Part shown: positions 34,780 through 43,971 of the stretch, piece after piece
How positions within the stretch are numbered: position 1 is the stretch's first letter
Layout: each line of letters opens with the position of its first letter
Assembly: GCA_002428445.1 (NCBI GenBank)
Contig: DIWJ01000054.1
Location: forward strand, 1 to 64,000
From: Syntrophaceae bacterium UBA6109
GTDB taxonomy: Bacteria; Desulfobacterota; Syntrophia; Syntrophales; UBA6109
Direction: 5' to 3'
DNA: 64,000 nucleotides
The notes under the pieces: generated by a model
The model's database searches: none
What the model was told of the DNA's origin: nothing
The model's input: the letters and a program-made list of their open reading frames with translations, nothing else
Made by a program: the position numbers and the translations under genes

Positions 34780-35319
34780 ATGAATCTACAGGGCACCAAC
34801 ATATCCTTGCGATTGCCGCGCCTTGACGATGTCCCCGCCCGCAACGCCTGGTTCAACGACCCCGAATTCACGCGCCTCTATCTTGGACGGCCGTCCGGAA
34901 CACCCTACTCGCAGGTGGAGGAAGAGGTTCGCTTTGCGATGCTGCCGACGGCGTCGTCAGGACTGATGGAATACGCCATCGAGACGACGGCCGAACCCCG
35001 CTACATCGGAAACGTTTTCTTCCGCAAGATCAGCTGGCAGGACCGCAGCGCCGAGATCGGCGTCTTCATCGGGCCGCGTGAACTGTGGGGGAAACAACTC
35101 GGCTGTGAGGCGCTGCGCCTGATGGCCGCCTACGGGTTCCGGGAGCTCGGGTTTCACCGCATCTGGTTGACCACGCCTTCTTTCAACCAGCGGGCGATCC
35201 GCTGCTTTGAGCGGACCGGATTCCGCCGCGAAGGCGTGTTCCGCGAGGCGATATTTTCCGGCGGCGCCTTCAACGACGTCATCTGGATGTCGATGCTGGA
35301 AAGCGAATTCCCCGATTAA
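34780..35319 (+). CDS. GNAT acetyltransferase, RimJ/RimL-like
   Basis: A 179-residue N-acetyltransferase. ISLRLPRLDDV at the start, GNVFFRKISWQDRSAEIGVFIG and the acetyl-CoA loop with RELWGKQLGCEALRLM are typical, as is NQRAIRCFERTGFRREG near the end. Substrate unknown; the group acetylates ribosomal-protein N termini or amino sugars. It is first in a plus-strand gene series that ends with a sirtuin, so acylation and deacylation enzymes flank the series. The gap to the TPR gene is 75 bases. Confidence 0.83.
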   Translation: MNLQGTNISLRLPRLDDVPARNAWFNDPEFTRLYLGRPSGTPYSQVEEEVRFAMLPTASSGLMEYAIETTAEPRYIGNVFFRKISWQDRSAEIGVFIGPRELWGKQLGCEALRLMAAYGFRELGFHRIWLTTPSFNQRAIRCFERTGFRREGVFREAIFSGGAFNDVIWMSMLESEFPD

Positions 35320-35394: not shown

Positions 35395-38241
35395 ATGAAG
35401 CGACAGTGCAAGTGGAACCCCCTCATTCATGCCCTCACGCTGCTGGCGGCGGCGGTTTTCCTGACGGTTGTGACAGCGGCCGCGGCTCTGGCCGACGCTT
35501 ACGATGACGGCCTCAAGATGTGGGAAAAGAAGGAATACGAAAAGTCGATCGTTTTCCTGCAAAAGGCCCTGAAGGAGGACCCGAAGTCGGCGCCCGCGAA
35601 GCAGCTTCTCGCCTGGAACTACGTCAAGTTCGGGCGCCTGGCCGAAGCGGAAGCGCTCTTCCTCGAGATCCGCGAGGCCAAGAAAGACGATGTCCGGGCC
35701 TTCCAGGGGCTGGGCTGGGTCTACGGAGAGATGGGACGAAACGAGGAGGCGATTTCGAACTTCAGGAACGAGGCCGCCTGGGCCAAGTCGCACATCGACA
35801 GCACCAACTACGTTTATTACGGGATCGACGAGCAGAAGTACATTGAATCCCTCTACTCGGACGCGAATTACGGCCTCGGCACGGTGTACAAGCGGATGTG
35901 GAAGTACGACGATGCCGTCAAACATCTGGAAGCGGCTCTGAAGGAACAGAACACCTTCACGCCTGAATCGGACATCGAGGCCGCGCTGGGGGACGTCTAC
36001 TACGAACAGGGAAAATGGAAACAGGCGCTCCGGCCTTTCGAGCGGGCGGCCAGGGGAGACAAGAAGAATCCTTCGCTGCAACTCAAAATCGCCTGGTGCC
36101 AGTATTTCAACAAGGATTACGGCGACGCGGAAAAGACCTTCGAAAAGGCCCGCGGTCTTCAGGCGGACGCGGCGGAACCGCCGTACGGTCTCGCCCTCAG
36201 CCAGTACCAGCAGAACAAGTTCGATGCGGCGCGCAAGAATCTCGCGAAGGCGATCGCCCTCAATCCCTATTTTGTCGACAATGTCTATCTCCACGGGATC
36301 ATCGACAAGAAACCCGAGTGGAAGAGCCTCTGGAAGGATTTCGGCCTCGCCTACAAGGGAAAACCCGCCTACAATTACCGCCTGGGGAATTTCCCCGCGG
36401 CGCTCTACAAACTGGCCGGATACGTCGATCAGGTGAATCCCCGGGATGTCGAGGCTCTGATTGCGGCGGGCTGGTGCTACCGCTGGGTGGAGTCCCTGGA
36501 CAAGGCCGCGGAAACATTCAATGCGGCGATCAAACTCGACCCGAAAGCCGACGAGGCCTTCGCGGGACTCGGCTCGACCTATATGGCCTACGGAAAGCTG
36601 CCGGAGGCGCTTAACTTCTTCAACGCCGCGCTGAAGATCAACGCGAACAATCCCATCACTTACAACGGCATGGCCTATCTTTATCTCTACCAAAAAGACG
36701 AGAAGAAGGCGGAGGAGGCGCTGCGCAAGGCGGTATCGCTCAAGAAGGACTACATCGATTGCCAGGCTTTTCTCGGCAATCTCCTGTACGGACAGAAACG
36801 ATTCGCCGAGGCCGTCAGCGAATATGACAAGCTCGTGCAGATCGACAAAAAGCTTCTGACCTCCTGGAACAGCCTGGGATGGGCCGCCTATTTCGCGGGC
36901 CAGACCGACAAAGCGATCGCCGCATTCGGCGAGTCCCGGAAGCTCAACCCCTTCTTTGTCGAGGCCCACTATGGACTGGGGATGGCCTACGCCAAAAAAG
37001 GCAATCTTGCGGCGGCGAAACCCGAACTGGCCGCCGCCATCGAAATCTATCCCTACTATGCGCACACGGCGGATCTCGTGGCGCTCATCAAGGCCAACCG
37101 GAGCTGGTCGGACCTCACCCTCGGGCTTGGCTGGAGTTATTACTACAAGCAGCAGTACCAGCCTGCCCTGGGAGCCTTCAAGGAGTACCTGGCGGTCAAG
37201 CCGGACAGCGTTCCGGCAAGTCGAGGCCTGGCCTGGTCAAACTACTGGGTCGGACAGCTCGACGCGGCCTACGCGGGATTCCAGGATCTCCTGAAGAAGG
37301 ATGCCGGCGATGTTGACGCGATGATCGGCTCCGGCTGGGTCCTCTTCGCGAAAAACAAGGATAAAGAAGCGGCGGACATCCTGAAGGCCGCCCTGGCGAA
37401 GGACCCCAAGCGCACCGATGCCTTGCGGACCATCGCCGCCATTTCTTACCGCGCCAAGAACTATGAGGAGGCCAACGCCCTTTACAGGAAAATTCAGGAA
37501 ATGGAACCCCGCGCACTGGACATCCACAACAACCAGGGATGGGCGCTGTACCGCGAACGGAAGTATGCCGAGGCGATCGGCAAATTTCATGAATCGATCC
37601 GGATCTACCGCTACTACGGAGAGCCGCACTACGGACTGGGAATGTGCTACGCGAAACTGGGTGAAATCGACAAGGCGAGGGAATCCTTCACCACGGCGGT
37701 CTACCTCTATCCGGGCTACATGGACGGCCAGGATCTCTACAGTGTCCTGGACTCCAATCCGAAGCTGCGGGAGCTGTACAACGCGATGGGTTGGAGCTAC
37801 TTCTACAACTACGACTACAAGGCGGCGAAATTCCACTTCGACCGCCTGCTGAAGGCCGATCCGGGCAACCGCGACGCCCTGCTGGGGCTGGGAACCGTCT
37901 CTTACGCACTCGGCGAATACAAGGATGCCGCCGGCACGCTCGGCAAGCTCGTGGCGGGTCTTCCGGCAACGGCGGACGGGTGGGACAAATGGAGCTACAT
38001 GCTGGACAACCTCGGCTGGAGCTACTACCTCCTGAAGGACTACGACAAGGCCCGCGAGACCTTCAAACGCCTCGAGGCTTACCATCCCAAGATCCGTTAC
38101 ATCGCGCCGATCAACGGCATGGCATGGTCCGAACTGCAGAAAGGCAGCAGGGCCGAAGCGGAAAAGCTCTTCGCGGCCTCGCTGAAAACCGTTCCCGGCA
38201 ACCTCAGCGCCGAGGCGGGAATGCGTGAACTGAAGAAATAG
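35395..38241 (+). CDS. Large secreted or periplasmic TPR-repeat protein
   Basis: A 948-residue protein with an N-terminal signal peptide (residues 1-34, hydrophobic LTLLAAAVFLTVVTAAAALA). The rest is almost all tetratricopeptide repeats, with consensus pieces such as YEKSIVFLQKALKEDPKS and FAGLGSTYMAYGKLPEALNF. At least three longer units recur near residues 290, 552 and 772, each with a Pro-Tyr/Gly-Tyr stretch, an L-x-x-L/V-I/L-D/K segment and a Trp/Leu followed by GxSY or GxAY (GWSYYYKQQY, GWSYFYNYDY). It is probably a protein-interaction scaffold outside the cytosol. ATG 35395 follows GGAGAAAGG. Confidence 0.85.
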   Translation: MKRQCKWNPLIHALTLLAAAVFLTVVTAAAALADAYDDGLKMWEKKEYEKSIVFLQKALKEDPKSAPAKQLLAWNYVKFGRLAEAEALFLEIREAKKDDVRAFQGLGWVYGEMGRNEEAISNFRNEAAWAKSHIDSTNYVYYGIDEQKYIESLYSDANYGLGTVYKRMWKYDDAVKHLEAALKEQNTFTPESDIEAALGDVYYEQGKWKQALRPFERAARGDKKNPSLQLKIAWCQYFNKDYGDAEKTFEKARGLQADAAEPPYGLALSQYQQNKFDAARKNLAKAIALNPYFVDNVYLHGIIDKKPEWKSLWKDFGLAYKGKPAYNYRLGNFPAALYKLAGYVDQVNPRDVEALIAAGWCYRWVESLDKAAETFNAAIKLDPKADEAFAGLGSTYMAYGKLPEALNFFNAALKINANNPITYNGMAYLYLYQKDEKKAEEALRKAVSLKKDYIDCQAFLGNLLYGQKRFAEAVSEYDKLVQIDKKLLTSWNSLGWAAYFAGQTDKAIAAFGESRKLNPFFVEAHYGLGMAYAKKGNLAAAKPELAAAIEIYPYYAHTADLVALIKANRSWSDLTLGLGWSYYYKQQYQPALGAFKEYLAVKPDSVPASRGLAWSNYWVGQLDAAYAGFQDLLKKDAGDVDAMIGSGWVLFAKNKDKEAADILKAALAKDPKRTDALRTIAAISYRAKNYEEANALYRKIQEMEPRALDIHNNQGWALYRERKYAEAIGKFHESIRIYRYYGEPHYGLGMCYAKLGEIDKARESFTTAVYLYPGYMDGQDLYSVLDSNPKLRELYNAMGWSYFYNYDYKAAKFHFDRLLKADPGNRDALLGLGTVSYALGEYKDAAGTLGKLVAGLPATADGWDKWSYMLDNLGWSYYLLKDYDKARETFKRLEAYHPKIRYIAPINGMAWSELQKGSRAEAEKLFAASLKTVPGNLSAEAGMRELKK

Positions 38242-38340
38242 GAACGGCAACGCCGGAGGGCAAACGCCAAATCCCCCTCATTCCCCGCGGCCAGGAGGAT
38301 GCAGGGGGATTCGCTTCCCTGGAGTTCGGAGGAAATCGAT

Positions 38341-38739
38341 ATGGAACCGAAGAAAGGCCGGATGCAGTCCTGCCTCCTGGAAGAAGAGGGCCGGGCCTGT
38401 GCGCCCCCGACGGGGGATTTCCCTCTCTGCGGAGACCATGCACGGGAGATCGATCGCCGTTACGCCGTGTGTCTTGCCGAAAATGCCCGGCGCGACTTCA
38501 TGGAGCGGGGCGAGGACGCCTTCCTGTTCTCCCGGCGGGACGGCTCGGTTTACGCCCTCAACGCGGTGGCGGCGCTCATTTTCCGGCGCCTGGCCGACGG
38601 TTCCAGATTCTCCGGGATCCTTCAGGAGATCGCAGCGGCCTTCGAGGGTCCGACGCCGGCGGAATTCCTGGAAGACGCGGTCGAATTTCTCGCCCTGCTG
38701 CAGAAAGCGGGAATCGCGACGAGGGAAGATGGACCGTAA
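38341..38739 (+). CDS. PqqD-family protein (RiPP recognition element)
   Basis: A 132-residue protein whose C-terminal 85 residues match the PqqD fold: AFLFSRRDGSVYALNAVAALIFRRLADG near residues 62-90 (landmarks AFLFSRRDG and YALNAVAALI), then FLEDAVEFLALLQKAGI. PqqD-like winged-helix RREs bind leader peptides and deliver them to modifying enzymes. The N-terminal 45 residues are extra. ATG 38341 has GGAGGAAATC upstream. It overlaps the ATP-grasp gene by 11 bases, and a leader-like YxxPxL sequence appears two genes later, at the start of the decarboxylase. Confidence 0.8.
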   Translation: MEPKKGRMQSCLLEEEGRACAPPTGDFPLCGDHAREIDRRYAVCLAENARRDFMERGEDAFLFSRRDGSVYALNAVAALIFRRLADGSRFSGILQEIAAAFEGPTPAEFLEDAVEFLALLQKAGIATREDGP

Positions 38740-39784
38740 CGTCACCAAACACGTCGTCGTCACCGGACTTCTCGCAACGGACAACCCGTACCCGGGCCTC
38801 GGCATCGCGCGCTGCCTTCGGCTCGCGCCCGAGTTCACGGGAACGATTTCCGCTTTTGTATTTGAACCGTTGTCGAACGGCATCTACGACCGCGCCATCG
38901 TCGATCGCGCCTTTATCGTCCCCTACCCCGCCGCAGGCTGCGACACCCTCCTCGAGCGGATCCGCAGCATCCATGAGCGCTGTCCGATCGATGTGATCCT
39001 TCCTTCGCTCGACTCGGAAGTCTCCCTCTATGCGGAGCTCGCCGGGCCCCTGCGCGACCTCGGGATCGGAACGCTGCTCCCTCCGCCGTCGCAGGTGAAA
39101 CTCCGGGCGAAGAACCTTCTCTACGAGTTCGGTCTGGAGCAGGGCGTCCGCGTCCCCAAGACGCTCCTGCTCAACAACATCGACGAGCTCCGCCCGAAGG
39201 TCAGGGAAGTGGGAGTCCCGTTTCTCCTCAAGGGAATCCTCAATGACGCCCGCGTCTGCGCCTCCGTCGAGGAAGGCGAGCGGCGCTATGAGGAGCTCTA
39301 CGGACTGTGGGGATATCCGATCCTCCTGCAGAGTTTCGTCGTCGGAGAGGAGTTCGACGTCATCGCCCTGGCCGACCGCGAGGCGGAGGTGGTCGGCGCC
39401 GTCGCCATGAAGAAATTCGGGCTCACCGACAAGGGGAAAGCCTTTGCGGGGCTGACCGTCGAGGATGACGAGCTCCTGCGCCTTACCGCGGAGATTCTCC
39501 GCAAGCTCCGCTGGGCGGGGCCGATTGAATGCGAGTTTCTCCGCGATCGGGCCGGCGATCTTCACCTCATGGAAGTGAACAGCCGTTTCCCCTCCTGGCT
39601 GTATCTGTCGGCAGTGGCGGGACAGAACCTGCCCCTGGCAGCGGTCCGGATCGCCGCCGGAATGCCGGCGGAGCGGATGACCCGTTACGCGAGCGGCAAG
39701 CTCTTCATCCGCACGGTCGCGGACCGGATCGTCGATGCGGAACCGCTGGTGGCACTTGCCGCAACGGGGGAGGTGCGGGTGTGA
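38729..39784 (+). CDS. ATP-grasp ligase, intact catalytic residues
   Basis: A 351-residue ATP-grasp enzyme of the carboxylate-amine/thiol ligase type. An N-terminal Rossmann-like part (HVVVTGLLATDNPYPGLGIAR) precedes the ATP-grasp region with FLLKGILND, VVGEEFDVIA, and the metal-binding residues: Glu267/Glu269 in IECEF and Glu282/Asn284 in MEVNSRF. It should form an amide or similar bond through an acyl-phosphate. It lies between the PqqD gene (11-base overlap) and a degenerate paralogue (GTGA overlap). Substrates unknown. Confidence 0.82.
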   Translation: MDRNVTKHVVVTGLLATDNPYPGLGIARCLRLAPEFTGTISAFVFEPLSNGIYDRAIVDRAFIVPYPAAGCDTLLERIRSIHERCPIDVILPSLDSEVSLYAELAGPLRDLGIGTLLPPPSQVKLRAKNLLYEFGLEQGVRVPKTLLLNNIDELRPKVREVGVPFLLKGILNDARVCASVEEGERRYEELYGLWGYPILLQSFVVGEEFDVIALADREAEVVGAVAMKKFGLTDKGKAFAGLTVEDDELLRLTAEILRKLRWAGPIECEFLRDRAGDLHLMEVNSRFPSWLYLSAVAGQNLPLAAVRIAAGMPAERMTRYASGKLFIRTVADRIVDAEPLVALAATGEVRV

Positions 39785-40713
39785 ACGTCGCCGTAACCGG
39801 CCTCAGCACCGGCAGCGAAACCGCCGCCGGCATCGCCGTCCTCAAGGCCCTGCGCCTCGCCAATGTCGAGCGCCTCGTCGGACTCACGACCAGCGCCCTT
39901 GAGGTGGGCGCCTACCAGGAAGACCTCCTGGATGCCGCGTACCTCGTACCGCCGCTCCATGAGCGGAGTTCCTTTCTCGACAGGCTGGCGCAGATCAAGA
40001 CCGAGGGCGGTCTGGACGCGGTCATCCCGGCCGTCGACGACGATGTCCGGCGGATGTGCGCCATGGCCGCGGAGCTCGAAGACATCGGGATCCGGGCGCT
40101 CCTGCCCGGCGAACGGGTTCTGACGGATCTTTGGCAAGGCCGCTTTCCCGCTCCCGCTTCCGGTGACCGGAAGCAACCGGAAGGCACTCTGCGGGGCTCT
40201 CTTCCCGCCCTCGTCAAGAGTCCGGTCCAAAGCGTCAGCGGGCAGAGGAACGTTCTCGAGGACGAGTTTTCCGTCTGCGTCCTTGCCGAACGCGGTCACA
40301 GCGCGGCGGCCGTCACGACGATCAAGAAGCTGCTCACGTCCAGGGGCGGCAGCACCTGGATGGCGCTTTCCGTGGACGGCGGTGAACTGGCGGAAACGGC
40401 CGTCGCTCTCGTCGCGGATTCCGGCTGGACAGGCCCCCTGACTCTCGACTTCATCCGCAACGAAAGGGGCGCCCCCTTCCTGACGGCCCTTCACCCCCGC
40501 TTCCCTGATTGGATCAATTTCCCCGCCGCGGAGGGTCTCAACCTGCCGGGAATCCTTCTGGACATCCTCAGCGGCCGCGAAACGGAATCGCCCCGGCCGG
40601 CGCCGCCTTCGGGCAGACTGTTCGTTCGCACGGCAATCGATATCGTAACCGACATCAGCCGATTCGGCACCTTTTCTCTGACGGGAGAAATCCGCTATGA
40701 CGACCGGAAATAA
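39781..40713 (+). CDS. Degenerate ATP-grasp paralogue
   Basis: A 310-residue protein beginning with GTG behind GGGGGAGG. It aligns with the preceding gene product: GPLTLDFIRNERGAPFL against GPIECEFLRDRAGDLHL, and HPRFPDWINFPAAEGLNLP against NSRFPSWLYLSAVAGQNLP. The metal-binding positions are changed: Glu282 and Asn284 of the neighbour correspond to Ala and His here, and Glu267 to Thr. The central region is about 40 residues shorter. It looks like a tandem duplicate that lost catalysis and may serve as a partner or regulatory subunit. It overlaps the decarboxylase gene by 17 bases. Confidence 0.75.
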   Translation: MNVAVTGLSTGSETAAGIAVLKALRLANVERLVGLTTSALEVGAYQEDLLDAAYLVPPLHERSSFLDRLAQIKTEGGLDAVIPAVDDDVRRMCAMAAELEDIGIRALLPGERVLTDLWQGRFPAPASGDRKQPEGTLRGSLPALVKSPVQSVSGQRNVLEDEFSVCVLAERGHSAAAVTTIKKLLTSRGGSTWMALSVDGGELAETAVALVADSGWTGPLTLDFIRNERGAPFLTALHPRFPDWINFPAAEGLNLPGILLDILSGRETESPRPAPPSGRLFVRTAIDIVTDISRFGTFSLTGEIRYDDRK

Positions 40714-42061
40714 AAAACCCTACGTCAAACCCGCCCTGACCCGCATATCGCTGGTAGACACGGAGAGATTCAAGGGGTCCTACCTGAAGGCCAAGGTCTG
40801 CTCCGCCATCGACGGCCATCCGGTACGCCGGCTGCTGCGGGATTTCGGGTCGCCCCTCTACGTGGTCTCGGAGGCATCCCTCCGCCGCGTTTTCCGCCGC
40901 ATGCGGGACGCCTTCACGAGCCGCTGCCCCGGGGCGACAATCGCCTACTCCTACAAGACCAACTACCTGTCCGGCATCTGCGCGATCCTTCACCGCGAAG
41001 GCGCATGGGCGGAGGTCGTTTCGGGGCTGGAATACGAGATGGCGAGACGGCTGGCGGTGCCCGGCAACGAGATCGTCTTCAACGGACCGCACAAGAATCC
41101 CGCCGAGATGGGCCGGGCCTTCGCGGACGGCGCCGCCGTGAACCTGGATTCCTTCGATGACCTTCGGAAGGCAGAGCAGGTCGCCGAGACGCTGGGGCGG
41201 GAGGCGCGGGTCGGTATCCGCGTCAACATGCAGCTCAATTACCCGGCCTGGGACAAGTTCGGCTTCGGCCTGGAATCCGGGCAGGCCTACGACGCCTGCC
41301 GGATCATCGCCCGGCACCGGCATCTGCGGCTGGCCGGCCTCCACTGCCATGTCGGAACCTACGTGATCGACCTGAGCATCTACCGGCGTCTGATCGAGAA
41401 CCTCCTTTCGCTGGCGGTAAAGATCCGCGAAACCCTGGGCATCGGCCTGGAGTACCTCGACATCGGCGGCGGCTTCCCGTCCGCGAACACGCTGCACTCC
41501 CAGCTCATGCCCGGCGATACGACATCGCCGACGCCGGAGCAGTACGCCGAGACGATCTGCGATGCATTGAACCGCCGGAGCGGTGAACTGGCCGCGCCCG
41601 TGCGGCTGCTCCTGGAGCCCGGCCGCAGCGTCGTCGACGAATGCATGTCCCTGCTGTCCACCGTCGTGGCCGTCAAGGAATACAGCGGGGGACGCTTCGC
41701 CGTCATCGATGCGGGTGTCAACCTCCTGCCCACGGCGTATTATTACAGGTTCCAGATTCTGTCCGACCGGGAGGCCGCGGCGACCGAGCAGATCGACCTC
41801 GTCGGGCCGCTGTGCATGCAGATCGACGTTGTGCGCAGGGGGGCCACGCTCCCGCGGGTCCAGGCCGGGGATGTCCTGACGGTCCGCAACGTCGGCGCAT
41901 ACAACTTTTCACAGTCGATGGCGTTCATCTTCCCCAGGCCGGCCGTGGTCCTGGTCGGGGACGGCGGCGCCGAAATCCTCCGCCGGGCCGAAACCTATGA
42001 GGACATCAAGGGGCCGGAGCGGGTCCCCGAGAGGCTGTTCGGCAGGAGCACGGCCCCGTGA
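40697..42061 (+). CDS. LysA-like PLP decarboxylase with an N-terminal YxxPxL leader-type tag
   Basis: A 454-residue fold-type III PLP enzyme of the diaminopimelate/ornithine decarboxylase group. The PLP lysine is Lys87 (AYSYKTNY), followed by GLHCHVGT, GGGFPSANT, EPGRSVVDE, the dimer-interface Cys373 in GPLCMQID and AYNFSQSMAF. Before the barrel lies a 35-residue tail containing KKPYVKPALTRISL, which matches the KxxYxKPxL pattern recognised by PqqD-like RREs in lasso-peptide leaders. This tail is not part of LysA. It might recruit the PqqD protein encoded upstream (inference). The substrate is an amino acid or a carrier-bound equivalent. GTGA overlap with the next gene. Confidence 0.83.
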   Translation: MTTGNKKPYVKPALTRISLVDTERFKGSYLKAKVCSAIDGHPVRRLLRDFGSPLYVVSEASLRRVFRRMRDAFTSRCPGATIAYSYKTNYLSGICAILHREGAWAEVVSGLEYEMARRLAVPGNEIVFNGPHKNPAEMGRAFADGAAVNLDSFDDLRKAEQVAETLGREARVGIRVNMQLNYPAWDKFGFGLESGQAYDACRIIARHRHLRLAGLHCHVGTYVIDLSIYRRLIENLLSLAVKIRETLGIGLEYLDIGGGFPSANTLHSQLMPGDTTSPTPEQYAETICDALNRRSGELAAPVRLLLEPGRSVVDECMSLLSTVVAVKEYSGGRFAVIDAGVNLLPTAYYYRFQILSDREAAATEQIDLVGPLCMQIDVVRRGATLPRVQAGDVLTVRNVGAYNFSQSMAFIFPRPAVVLVGDGGAEILRRAETYEDIKGPERVPERLFGRSTAP

Positions 42062-43971
42062 ACATCCGCGACGCGACCGTTCTGACCGCGAGTCTCTGGC
42101 GGGAAATGACGTCCCGCCACGCCCCCCTCCGCTGGGTCGATATCGTTCTGCGCTCTTACGGTCAGGTCCTCTTTGCCGATTCCGCCCTGAGCGGGCTGTT
42201 TCTGATCCTGGCTCTGGGCATGCTCTCCGTAAGGACGCTTTTCTTTTCCCTGGCCGGCGCGCTGATCGCCAATGCCGCCGCCCGCCTTCTGCGAAAAGAT
42301 CCTTTTTACCTCGAGCATGGGATCTACGGCTTCAACGGCGTGATTTTCGGGCTTTTCTGGAGCTGGTACTTTGTTCTTTCGCCGGTGTCCCTGAGCCTGT
42401 TCCTTCCGGCCGCGCTTCTTCTGTGTCCCCTGCAGTCCGCCCTGACGAAGAGCTTTTCCCGGGCGAAATCCTCCCTGCCGGTCATGAGCCTCCCGGCGGT
42501 CCTTCTTCTCTACGGCTCGCTGATCGCCGCCTACTGGCTCACCTTCAGCGCAAAAGTCGTTCCCTACGTGGAGTTGTTCGCACCGGCGATGGAAGCGATT
42601 GATCCACTGCTGCCCGTCAACCCGAATGACGGCGGTCCCCTCTGGGCCTTCATCGTAACGCACGGTCTTCACGTGTGGGGCGCCATCTTCGCGGGGATTC
42701 TGATTTTTTCGCCGATCAGCTTTCTTACGGCCGCGGGGTTCGTCCTTTGCGGATACGCGGTGACGCTCCTCCTTCCGCCGTCGACCGCCTCGACCGCCGG
42801 AATTTACCTCGGCCTCAATGTCCTCCCCGCAACCGTCGGGATGTTCGGCATCCTGCTCGTGCCGAACCGCTGGGCGTTTCTGTACACGCTCCTCGGGTTT
42901 CTCGTCTGCACGGCCCTTTGGCTTCTTCTCTCCGGCCTTCTCGGTTTTCTCAACCTCCCCTTCCTGACCTTGCCGTTCAACCTGACGGTCCTTCTGCTCA
43001 TGACGGCGGCCCTGCGCATGGGTCCCCTGCATTCCGGACTGGTCCCGGTTCCCCTGGACAGGATCACGACGCCCGAAAAGGCCATCCGCTCGCGGCGGCC
43101 GCTGCTCGGACCCTACCCGCAGGCCCCGGGCATCCGGCAGGCGGCCGGTTTTTTCCGGGGGCTGCTGCCCGGCGGCAGGCCGACGCCGCAGGAAATCGCC
43201 GGCCTGGTCGAGGCAATCCGGGCCGCCCGCTCGATCGCGATCCTCTCCGGCGCCGGAACAAGCACGGAATCGGGAATCCCCGATTTCCGGGACAATCCGG
43301 CCTTCTGGCGACGCTTCGGCGCCGAGGAGATGACCTACGGAAATTTCCTCTCGCGGCCGGACGTGCGCGAACGCTACTGGGAGATGGAGCGGCAATTCCA
43401 CCGGCTGATCGAAGAGGCACGTCCGAACGACGTTCACCGCGCCGCCGTTCGTCTGGAAGAGATGGGAAAGCTTTCCTGCGTGGTCACACAGAACGTGGAT
43501 GGTCTTTTTCAGAAGGCGGGGGTATCAGCCGGGCGGGTGATCGAGGTGCATGGAAGCATCCGCACCGCCCGCTGCGTCCGCTGCGGGACGGTTCATACGG
43601 TTGCCGAGATCGAGGCAATGCTTGGGGCGGGGATCGCAGACCCCTTTTGCCGGTCCTGCCGGGAGCCGCTCAAACCGGACACGGTTTTCATGGGGGAGCC
43701 GCTCGACGAGGCGGTGGCCGGCGAGGCGCTTTTCCGCATCCTGAGCTCGGGCCTCCTTCTCGTCGTCGGCACAAGCCTGCAGGTGGACCCCGTCGCCTCT
43801 TTCGCCGATCTCGCCTGGCGGAAGGGAGTCCGGATCGCCGTCGTCAATCTCCAGCCGACCCCCAAAGACGGCCTGGCGGAGATCGTCGTCCGGAAGCCCC
43901 TGGGTCCTGTCTTCCGCAAAATCCTGAAATCGCTCGCCGGCGGGCCGGTCACAGACCCAGCCGGCCGCTGA
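42058..43971 (+). CDS. Urea-transporter-like membrane domain fused to a Sir2 sirtuin
   Basis: A 637-residue fusion. Residues about 25-335 are hydrophobic and match the urea transporter family: HGIYGFNGVIFGLFW in the first half, STAGIYLGLNVLPATVG in the inverted second half, and TLPFNLTVLLLM. After a linker, residues about 385-630 are a sirtuin: SGAGTSTESGIPDFRD near 396, TQNVDGL near 475, the catalytic EVHGS near 496, zinc pairs CVRC and CRSC, and GTSLQVDP. All NAD and zinc residues seem present, so the deacylase is probably active and tethered to the membrane. GTG start overlaps the decarboxylase stop. I know no described protein with this pairing. Confidence 0.85.
   Translation: MNIRDATVLTASLWREMTSRHAPLRWVDIVLRSYGQVLFADSALSGLFLILALGMLSVRTLFFSLAGALIANAAARLLRKDPFYLEHGIYGFNGVIFGLFWSWYFVLSPVSLSLFLPAALLLCPLQSALTKSFSRAKSSLPVMSLPAVLLLYGSLIAAYWLTFSAKVVPYVELFAPAMEAIDPLLPVNPNDGGPLWAFIVTHGLHVWGAIFAGILIFSPISFLTAAGFVLCGYAVTLLLPPSTASTAGIYLGLNVLPATVGMFGILLVPNRWAFLYTLLGFLVCTALWLLLSGLLGFLNLPFLTLPFNLTVLLLMTAALRMGPLHSGLVPVPLDRITTPEKAIRSRRPLLGPYPQAPGIRQAAGFFRGLLPGGRPTPQEIAGLVEAIRAARSIAILSGAGTSTESGIPDFRDNPAFWRRFGAEEMTYGNFLSRPDVRERYWEMERQFHRLIEEARPNDVHRAAVRLEEMGKLSCVVTQNVDGLFQKAGVSAGRVIEVHGSIRTARCVRCGTVHTVAEIEAMLGAGIADPFCRSCREPLKPDTVFMGEPLDEAVAGEALFRILSSGLLLVVGTSLQVDPVASFADLAWRKGVRIAVVNLQPTPKDGLAEIVVRKPLGPVFRKILKSLAGGPVTDPAGR

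Follow-up and report, generated by a model that had tools for sequence, protein, structure and literature searches.

A leader-like N-terminal tag on a fold-type III decarboxylase as a probable docking site for the PqqD-type recognition element of its operon

The window analysed here is a stretch of 64,000 nucleotides from Syntrophaceae bacterium UBA6109 (contig DIWJ01000054.1, positions 1 to 64,000 of the forward strand). It contains five same-strand genes with overlapping ends, which encode a PqqD-type protein, an ATP-grasp ligase, a second ATP-grasp protein, a decarboxylase dependent on pyridoxal phosphate (PLP), and a fusion of a urea transporter with a SIR2 domain. The N-terminus of the decarboxylase carries a tag resembling the YxxPxL leader motif bound in lasso peptide pathways by PqqD-like domains, the recognition elements (RREs) of ribosomally synthesized and post-translationally modified peptides (RiPPs). 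Sequence comparisons and structure predictions lead us to propose, with a probability of about 0.78, that the RRE of this operon docks on the N-terminal ~27 residues of the decarboxylase. The ligand of the RRE would then be an enzyme instead of a precursor peptide.

Results

The tag is conserved and translated

The tagged fold-type III PLP decarboxylase (40697..42061, + strand) has 454 amino acids and the active-site motif GPLCMQID. Its N-terminus is KKPYVKPALTRISL, and the open reading frame (ORF) 40697-42061 opens with MTTGNKKPYVKPALTRISLVDTERFKG. A first reading of this DNA, made from the letters alone and called below the sequence-only reading, gave this start and this sequence correctly; the tag proves to be the hallmark of a larger family. 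In the window, the YxxPx(L/I) core is YVKPAL, residues 9-14 (40721..40738, + strand), and the complete conserved tag is KKPYVKPALTRISLVDTERFKG, residues 6-27 (40712..40777, + strand), a segment of low confidence in the model of the decarboxylase alone. Two forms of the motif were used, a strict one, Y..P.[LIV], and a loose one, [YF]xxPx[LIVMFA] before the barrel.

YxxPxI stands at the same position in all five relatives taken from genomes (60-70% identity). When the best 120 of 2821 proteins found at 1e-50 in a first profile search were inspected, 116 had the loose motif. The four exceptions are P0037, P0063 and P0104, which start at a later Met, and P0103, in which the motif is missing. The 114-row alignment omits seven of the 120 (P0025, P0037, P0050, P0063, P0084, P0103 and P0104); three of these, P0050, P0084 and P0025, are nevertheless tagged. 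A second search, with thermophile members as query, scored 8000 candidates, of which 7985 reached 1e-100, and the loose form was present in 119 of the 120 matches listed. Source names of the relatives include Planctomycetota, Chloroflexota, Omnitrophica, Armatimonadota, Aquificota and Campylobacterota.

Within the alignment, residue 9 is Tyr in 112 rows and Phe in two, and residue 12 is Pro in all 114. Residue 14 is more varied (I90 V16 L3 M2 F2 A1), so that of the YxxPxL pattern first proposed the Tyr/Pro core is kept and the third position is mostly Ile (90/114). The information content of the Tyr (4.26) and of the Pro (4.30) equals that of the most informative barrel columns printed (P53, 4.30; E59, 3.91), and residues 28-37 after the tag drift (0.55-1.69).

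The motif exceeds what chance would give: among 223 other genes of at least 150 amino acids in 21 neighbourhoods, the strict form was found within the first 40 residues of one, and the loose form in 12. Across 19 tag codons in five close pairs, out of 11 pairs planned, 18 codon differences were synonymous and 3 non-synonymous, and hence the tag is translated and constrained in frame. A second tag was sought elsewhere in the operon with the loose motif, and was found in 0/30 PqqD proteins, 0/32 ATP-grasp proteins and 2/30 transporters, those two not being tag-like by eye.

The tag occurs with an upstream PqqD gene

At 1e-90, 17 of 395 genomes, of a phylum we take to be Desulfobacterota, had a member of the decarboxylase family; further classes of 41, 155, 23, 63 and 8 genomes were also searched. 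Apart from the window itself, 33 distinct loci were compared (L001-L005, L007-L022, L039-L047, L120, L121 and L132). The tag is present at all 33 of these Desulfobacterota loci, L043 and L044 requiring an internal Met as start. The tagged decarboxylase of L016 (1510-1560) seems to require a non-ATG start.

Of the 33 loci, 31 have enough upstream sequence, and each of these has a PqqD gene upstream on its contig. The other two, L004 and L017, are cut before the PqqD position; in the genome of L017, PqqD and ATP-grasp genes stand at the end of another contig, and L022 was extended as L038. An ATP-grasp gene is present in 32 of the 33 loci, the gap being at a contig end, and the urea-transporter fusion follows 3' in 30, the remaining three stopping at contig ends. 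At every locus showing both, PqqD adjoins an ATP-grasp gene, frequently with overlap.

As controls we used 55 LysA-type enzymes from the same searches, of which 39 had come up as loci and 16 are paralogues from the genomes of tagged enzymes. The tag, in its loose form before the barrel, was found in 0/55, and a PqqD gene nearby also in 0/55. The upstream flank reached at least 2.5 kb in 46 of the 55 (13 of the 16 paralogues), which suffices to reveal a PqqD gene beyond two ATP-grasp genes; the other nine had 184-1887 bases. The suggestion that the tag is found only beside a PqqD gene thus holds, with 31/31 tagged loci against 0/55 untagged LysA-type enzymes. When the tag was left out and a tree built from the barrel, 47 family members (P0103 included) separated from 39 LysA-type enzymes at a support of 1.0.

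The reverse search, with a profile of 28 family PqqDs, gave 18 matches of at least 90 bits, which fall in precisely those 17 of the 395 genomes that have the decarboxylase; the next best match had 58.7 bits. Since the profile was built partly from these genomes, its weight rests on the gap in scores and not on the matches themselves. Taken together, the sequence comparisons firmly establish the linkage of tag and PqqD in Desulfobacterota. Outside this phylum, 18 contig sizes are shared among 120 PqqD rows and 120 decarboxylase rows, including those of Phorcysia and Desulfurobacterium atlanticum. Such equal-sized contigs suggest that tag and PqqD are co-located there as well, adjacency having been read directly in Desulfobacterota only.

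One genome, G079, has two copies of the cassette of PqqD, ATP-grasp and tagged decarboxylase (L011 and L132). In L012 (G274), the ATP-grasp gene that stands between PqqD and the tagged decarboxylase is broken into two ORFs.

The recognition element keeps the pocket of lasso leader readers

The PqqD-type protein is encoded at 38299..38739 (+ strand; PF05402, 38.7 bits against a cut-off of 23.4; 58.5 bits in one relative). A PqqD-like gene had been proposed at 38341-38739; the gene is there, although its start is at 38299 and 38341 is an alternative ATG. Its distance had been put at two genes upstream of the decarboxylase, and is three, because two ATP-grasp genes lie between. The single overlapping run described at the same time was borne out, with overlaps at every junction from PqqD through the transporter.

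The RRE domain occupies about residues 76-139 (38524-38715, + strand), behind a Cys/His-rich N-terminal extension. This extension (38299-38523 in the window, 1413-1562 in L038) has the pattern C-x(8-9)-C-x(9-10)-C-x2-H, a possible metal site seen in some clades only.

With the family PqqD profile, the best solved relatives were TbiB1 (5v1u/5v1v, 1.1e-12) and TfuB1 (6jx3, 2.1e-11), followed by chains of 9x90 and 9x8z (8.4e-6 and 1.2e-5). All top solved relatives are lasso or LPP RREs, and the PqqDs of pyrroloquinoline quinone (PQQ) synthesis come behind, at 0.08-0.09. By sequence and by fold, the family RREs are nearest to lasso RREs whose solved structures contain a YxxPxL leader. The prediction for a family member has the three-strand, three-helix fold of an RRE. 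Among NCBIfam models the top one for four of four RREs was lasso_PqqD_Strm (NF033530), with 27.3 for the window and 45.3, 34.1 and 46.8 for relatives; these scores are below its cut-off of 70, and the family RREs are therefore not filed as lasso proteins. The PQQ-biosynthesis model (TIGR03859, cut-off 46) gave no match to the window at E 0.01, and 20.6, 24.0 and none for the relatives. The HPr-rel-A model (TIGR04353) likewise fell short of its cut-off of 35 (22.1 for the window; 31.4, 28.7 and none for the relatives). Source annotations call several of the RREs 'HPr-rel-A system' and the enzymes alanine racemase or diaminopimelate decarboxylase, names that are probably misleading.

In LppB, Asp70 is reported to hydrogen-bond the leader Tyr, Phe74 and Val35 to sandwich the Pro, and Asn33 to fix the kink of the leader, with strand pairing that starts just past the Pro (PMC13381572). 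For TfuB1, a review describes a cleft for YxxP and Leu (PMC6784204). Three of the LppB residues have counterparts in the window RRE. Asp126 (38674..38676, + strand) corresponds to Asp70 and is Asp in 28/28 family RREs and in 120/120 further sequences. Phe130 (38686..38688, + strand), corresponding to the Pro-clamping Phe74, is Phe in the same 28/28 and 120/120. Asn88 (38560..38562, + strand), the equivalent of Asn33 at the kink, is Asn in 27/28 and 119/120. The PqqD of L016 (186-455) is the sole RRE of the 28 with Ser for this Asn.

Ten other contact columns were compared in the 28 RREs, and in seven of them nearly every row has a hydrophobic or aromatic residue. Thr occupies column 35 in 21 of 28, and is found in TfuB1 too; column 32 is V12 T9 L6 S1, and polar residues predominate in column 63, which is also the case for TbiB1 and TfuB1. 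PbaB1, which reads WxxP, has Gly and Gln at the Asn and Asp positions. The family RREs thus look like Tyr readers, which fits the tag.

The tag is predicted to become ordered with the recognition element

In the AlphaFold2 model of the decarboxylase alone, the tag blocks have predicted local distance difference test (pLDDT) values of 58, 56 and 45 and form no strand, and the barrel is mostly at 84-98. A single-chain surrogate joining RRE and tag was also predicted with AlphaFold2. Residues 421-430 had a mean pLDDT of 88 and a strand was placed at 432-435, so that the strand anticipated for the tag in the presence of the RRE appears, as a prediction.

The decarboxylase resembles FslC and may pair with a ligase

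Both domains of the decarboxylase were found over cut-off (PF02784, 116.3 bits; PF00278, 55.0 bits), as expected of a fold-type III PLP enzyme. An assignment to LysA was tried and rejected: TIGR01048 gave 259.7 against a cut-off of 297.9, and the GPxCExxD loop is absent. That loop is present in 38/39 LysA-type rows, and the form G[PA]LCM[NQ]xD in 47/50 tagged rows (some loci counted twice, three without match). The nearest solved decarboxylase by sequence is the N-citrylornithine decarboxylase FslC (7kh2); by fold, the Methanocaldococcus jannaschii diaminopimelate decarboxylase comes narrowly above it.

The first ATP-grasp protein (38729..39784, + strand; PF15632) has an intact C-terminal E-x-N-x-R-F-P motif in the alignment and is the presumed ligase. 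The second (39781..40713, + strand) lacks, by domain scan and alignment, a central segment and the E-x-N motif; it is conserved in this form in the window clade and is probably a pseudoenzyme or a scaffold. In L038 the second ATP-grasp copy appears intact. The last gene of the operon (42058..43971, + strand) fuses a urea-transporter domain to a SIR2 domain (PF03253, PF02146).

Discussion

Docking on the enzyme and its possible purpose

That the RRE docks on the enzyme itself, as the sequence-only reading had put forward, is supported by the conserved tag, its linkage to PqqD and the YxxP pocket retained by the RRE, together with the predictions. The tag would be bound as a lasso RRE binds a precursor leader: Tyr and Pro would share one hydrophobic cleft, the Ile or Leu would fill a second pocket, and the residues after the core would join the RRE sheet as an added strand.

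Several points weigh against this. P0103, a close relative, is without the motif, yet its barrel groups with the tagged family. RRE contact by itself does not account for the conserved Ser at 18, the Asn/Lys at 23-24 and Gly27. The reverse search used a profile built partly from the genomes searched. The surrogate has an unnatural linker of 340 residues, with a mean pLDDT of 52.4 and a predicted template modelling score of 0.34; the RRE modelled was that of a family member and not the window's own, and it is only the presumed partner of the tag strand. A Foldseek search with this model gave zero matches at 0.001, the best being 6jx3 at 1.4e-3. Lastly, the end of the surrogate that corresponds to the start of the barrel (451-467) is confident without the barrel, so that the confidence of the tag may be partly local.

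If docking takes place, its most likely purpose would be to keep the decarboxylase beside the ATP-grasp ligase, although for such a bridge we see about an even chance. The ligase would be the third partner, and an amide or peptide that it makes would be passed to the decarboxylase for decarboxylation. We infer that the ligase couples a carboxylate to an amino acid, that the docked decarboxylase strips off the carboxylate, and that the transporter passes the product; the small product would exit through the urea-transporter-like protein.

Other roles for the tag and the recognition element

The RRE may instead be a chaperone, an inhibitor or an anchor of the decarboxylase, for example to the transporter, and not a bridge to the ligase. 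This overlaps with docking and is a serious minority view, in that the transporter fusion lies 3' in 30/33 loci and the partnership with the ligase is inferred from gene order only. However, PqqD adjoins an ATP-grasp gene, and often overlaps it, wherever both are seen.

Alternatively, the tag could be a RiPP-like substrate fused to the enzyme, presented by the RRE and modified by the ATP-grasp protein with a graspetide-like cross-link or an added amino acid. RRE, ATP-grasp and leader motif do make up a RiPP parts list, and conservation extends ~13 residues beyond YxxPx(I/L). A conserved acidic acceptor is absent, however: over residues 15-30 the best column has Asp or Glu in 28/114 rows, and motif residue 10, acidic in 75/114, is Val in the window. 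Leader peptidase, cyclase and radical SAM domains are also absent from the operon proteins scanned. Because the conserved acids are lacking, we judge a self-modified tag unlikely.

It is more doubtful still that the tag belongs to the structure of the decarboxylase, as a dimer contact or an active-site lid, with PqqD acting elsewhere. Its Tyr and Pro do match the most conserved barrel columns printed, and the model of the decarboxylase alone has a short helix of low confidence at residues 19-23. Against this, the tag blocks (58, 56 and 45, compared with mostly 84-98 in the barrel) are followed by a variable linker, the tag lies outside the aligned part of 39/39 solved relatives listed, and it fits the ligand motif of another domain whose pocket is kept next door.

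Equally improbable is that the RRE acts on a small precursor encoded separately, which the decarboxylase tag mimics or competes with: other PqqD loci of the phylum do have small W/YxxP peptides (L105, L118, L113), yet of the 35 small loose-motif ORFs found outside long ORFs in 21 neighbourhoods only two pairs were alike by BLAST, neither leader-like by eye, and no convincing candidate precursor was found there. One pair is a shared, secreted-looking protein of ~120 residues near the operon in the close relatives L035 (3496-3870) and L036 (3067-3429); the other is antisense to PqqD in L002 and L003. Among the other PqqD loci of the phylum, 3/29 have a small W/YxxP peptide nearby, a thirtieth, L117, being itself a tagged locus. 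The three peptides (L105, 214-378; L118, 9-188; L113, 403-504) are candidates for ordinary RiPP precursors.

Comparison with known systems

RRE docking on the tag has its closest parallel in the lasso RREs TfuB1/FusB1, TbiB1 and PbaB1 and the LPP RRE LppB, which have in common with it the fold, the YxxP pocket residues and the motif [Y/W]xxPx[L/V/I/F/A]. Those RREs bind a leader that belongs to a small precursor, whereas here the ligand would be the N-terminus of a 450-residue enzyme. The lasso B2 peptidase and C cyclase were absent in Pfam scans of the operon proteins from the window and relatives.

FslC (7kh2) has a GPxCMQxD loop in common with the tagged family, unlike the GPxCExxD of LysA, and its step resembles the chemistry proposed for ligase and decarboxylase. 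The window decarboxylase is nonetheless far under the cut-off of the FslC model (221.5 against 500), and we know of no RRE partner of FslC.

In butirosin synthesis (BtrI/BtrJ/BtrK), an ATP-grasp ligase and then a fold-type III decarboxylase act on a tethered amino acid, the tether being an acyl carrier protein. The pairing proposed here resembles that of BtrJ and BtrK; in our operon the enzyme itself carries the tag, and a carrier is absent from the operon proteins scanned. Graspetide systems also combine an ATP-grasp ligase and a motif resembling a leader; here, by contrast, an RRE is present, acidic acceptors are not conserved past the motif, and no convincing separate precursor was found in the 21 neighbourhoods.

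In the open-licence literature we found no described enzyme with such a tag, as the sequence-only reading had stated, nor any description of an RRE reading an enzyme's own N-terminus or of a pathway combining PqqD, ATP-grasp, decarboxylase and urea transporter; a lanthipeptide review (PMC10373908) was the single paper found to bring PqqD, ATP-grasp and decarboxylase together. RREs serve to find RiPP clusters, and their ligand is assumed to be a precursor peptide. We lean towards the view that RRE-leader recognition is a general protein docking module that extends beyond RiPP biosynthesis, with probably thousands of tagged decarboxylases in several phyla, each brought by a dedicated RRE into a ligase-decarboxylase-transporter assembly that would make and export a small amide or polyamine. 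If the RREs of this family do bind an enzyme, orphan PqqD genes would be read differently, and its roughly 20 residues would be a natural tag for tethering enzymes. The operon would also point to a small-molecule pathway spread among thermophiles and syntrophic bacteria.

Neighbouring genes and minor observations

On the 5' side of the operon, a domain scan showed a tetratricopeptide-repeat (TPR) protein with a signal-peptide-like N-terminus (35395..38241, + strand); its similarity cluster is present in 18 of 21 neighbourhoods. Further 5' lies a GNAT acetyltransferase gene (34780..35319, + strand) that is kept in the closest relatives.

Four operon proteins had no PADLOC match at 1e-5 that would indicate a defence role. 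Plasmid records gave zero matches at 1e-60, and of 18 pattern-matching stretches in viral contigs none was confirmed.

The GNAT gene is conserved 5' of the TPR gene in the window clade (the window, L001, L002, L003 and L005), where the operon also has a SIR2 domain. The fusion of urea transporter and SIR2 was seen in 5/5 members of this clade scanned (the window, L001, L002, L003 and L005). In 9/9 other members of the operon family scanned, the urea transporter is fused to an M23 peptidase domain, for instance in L024 (10177-12303).

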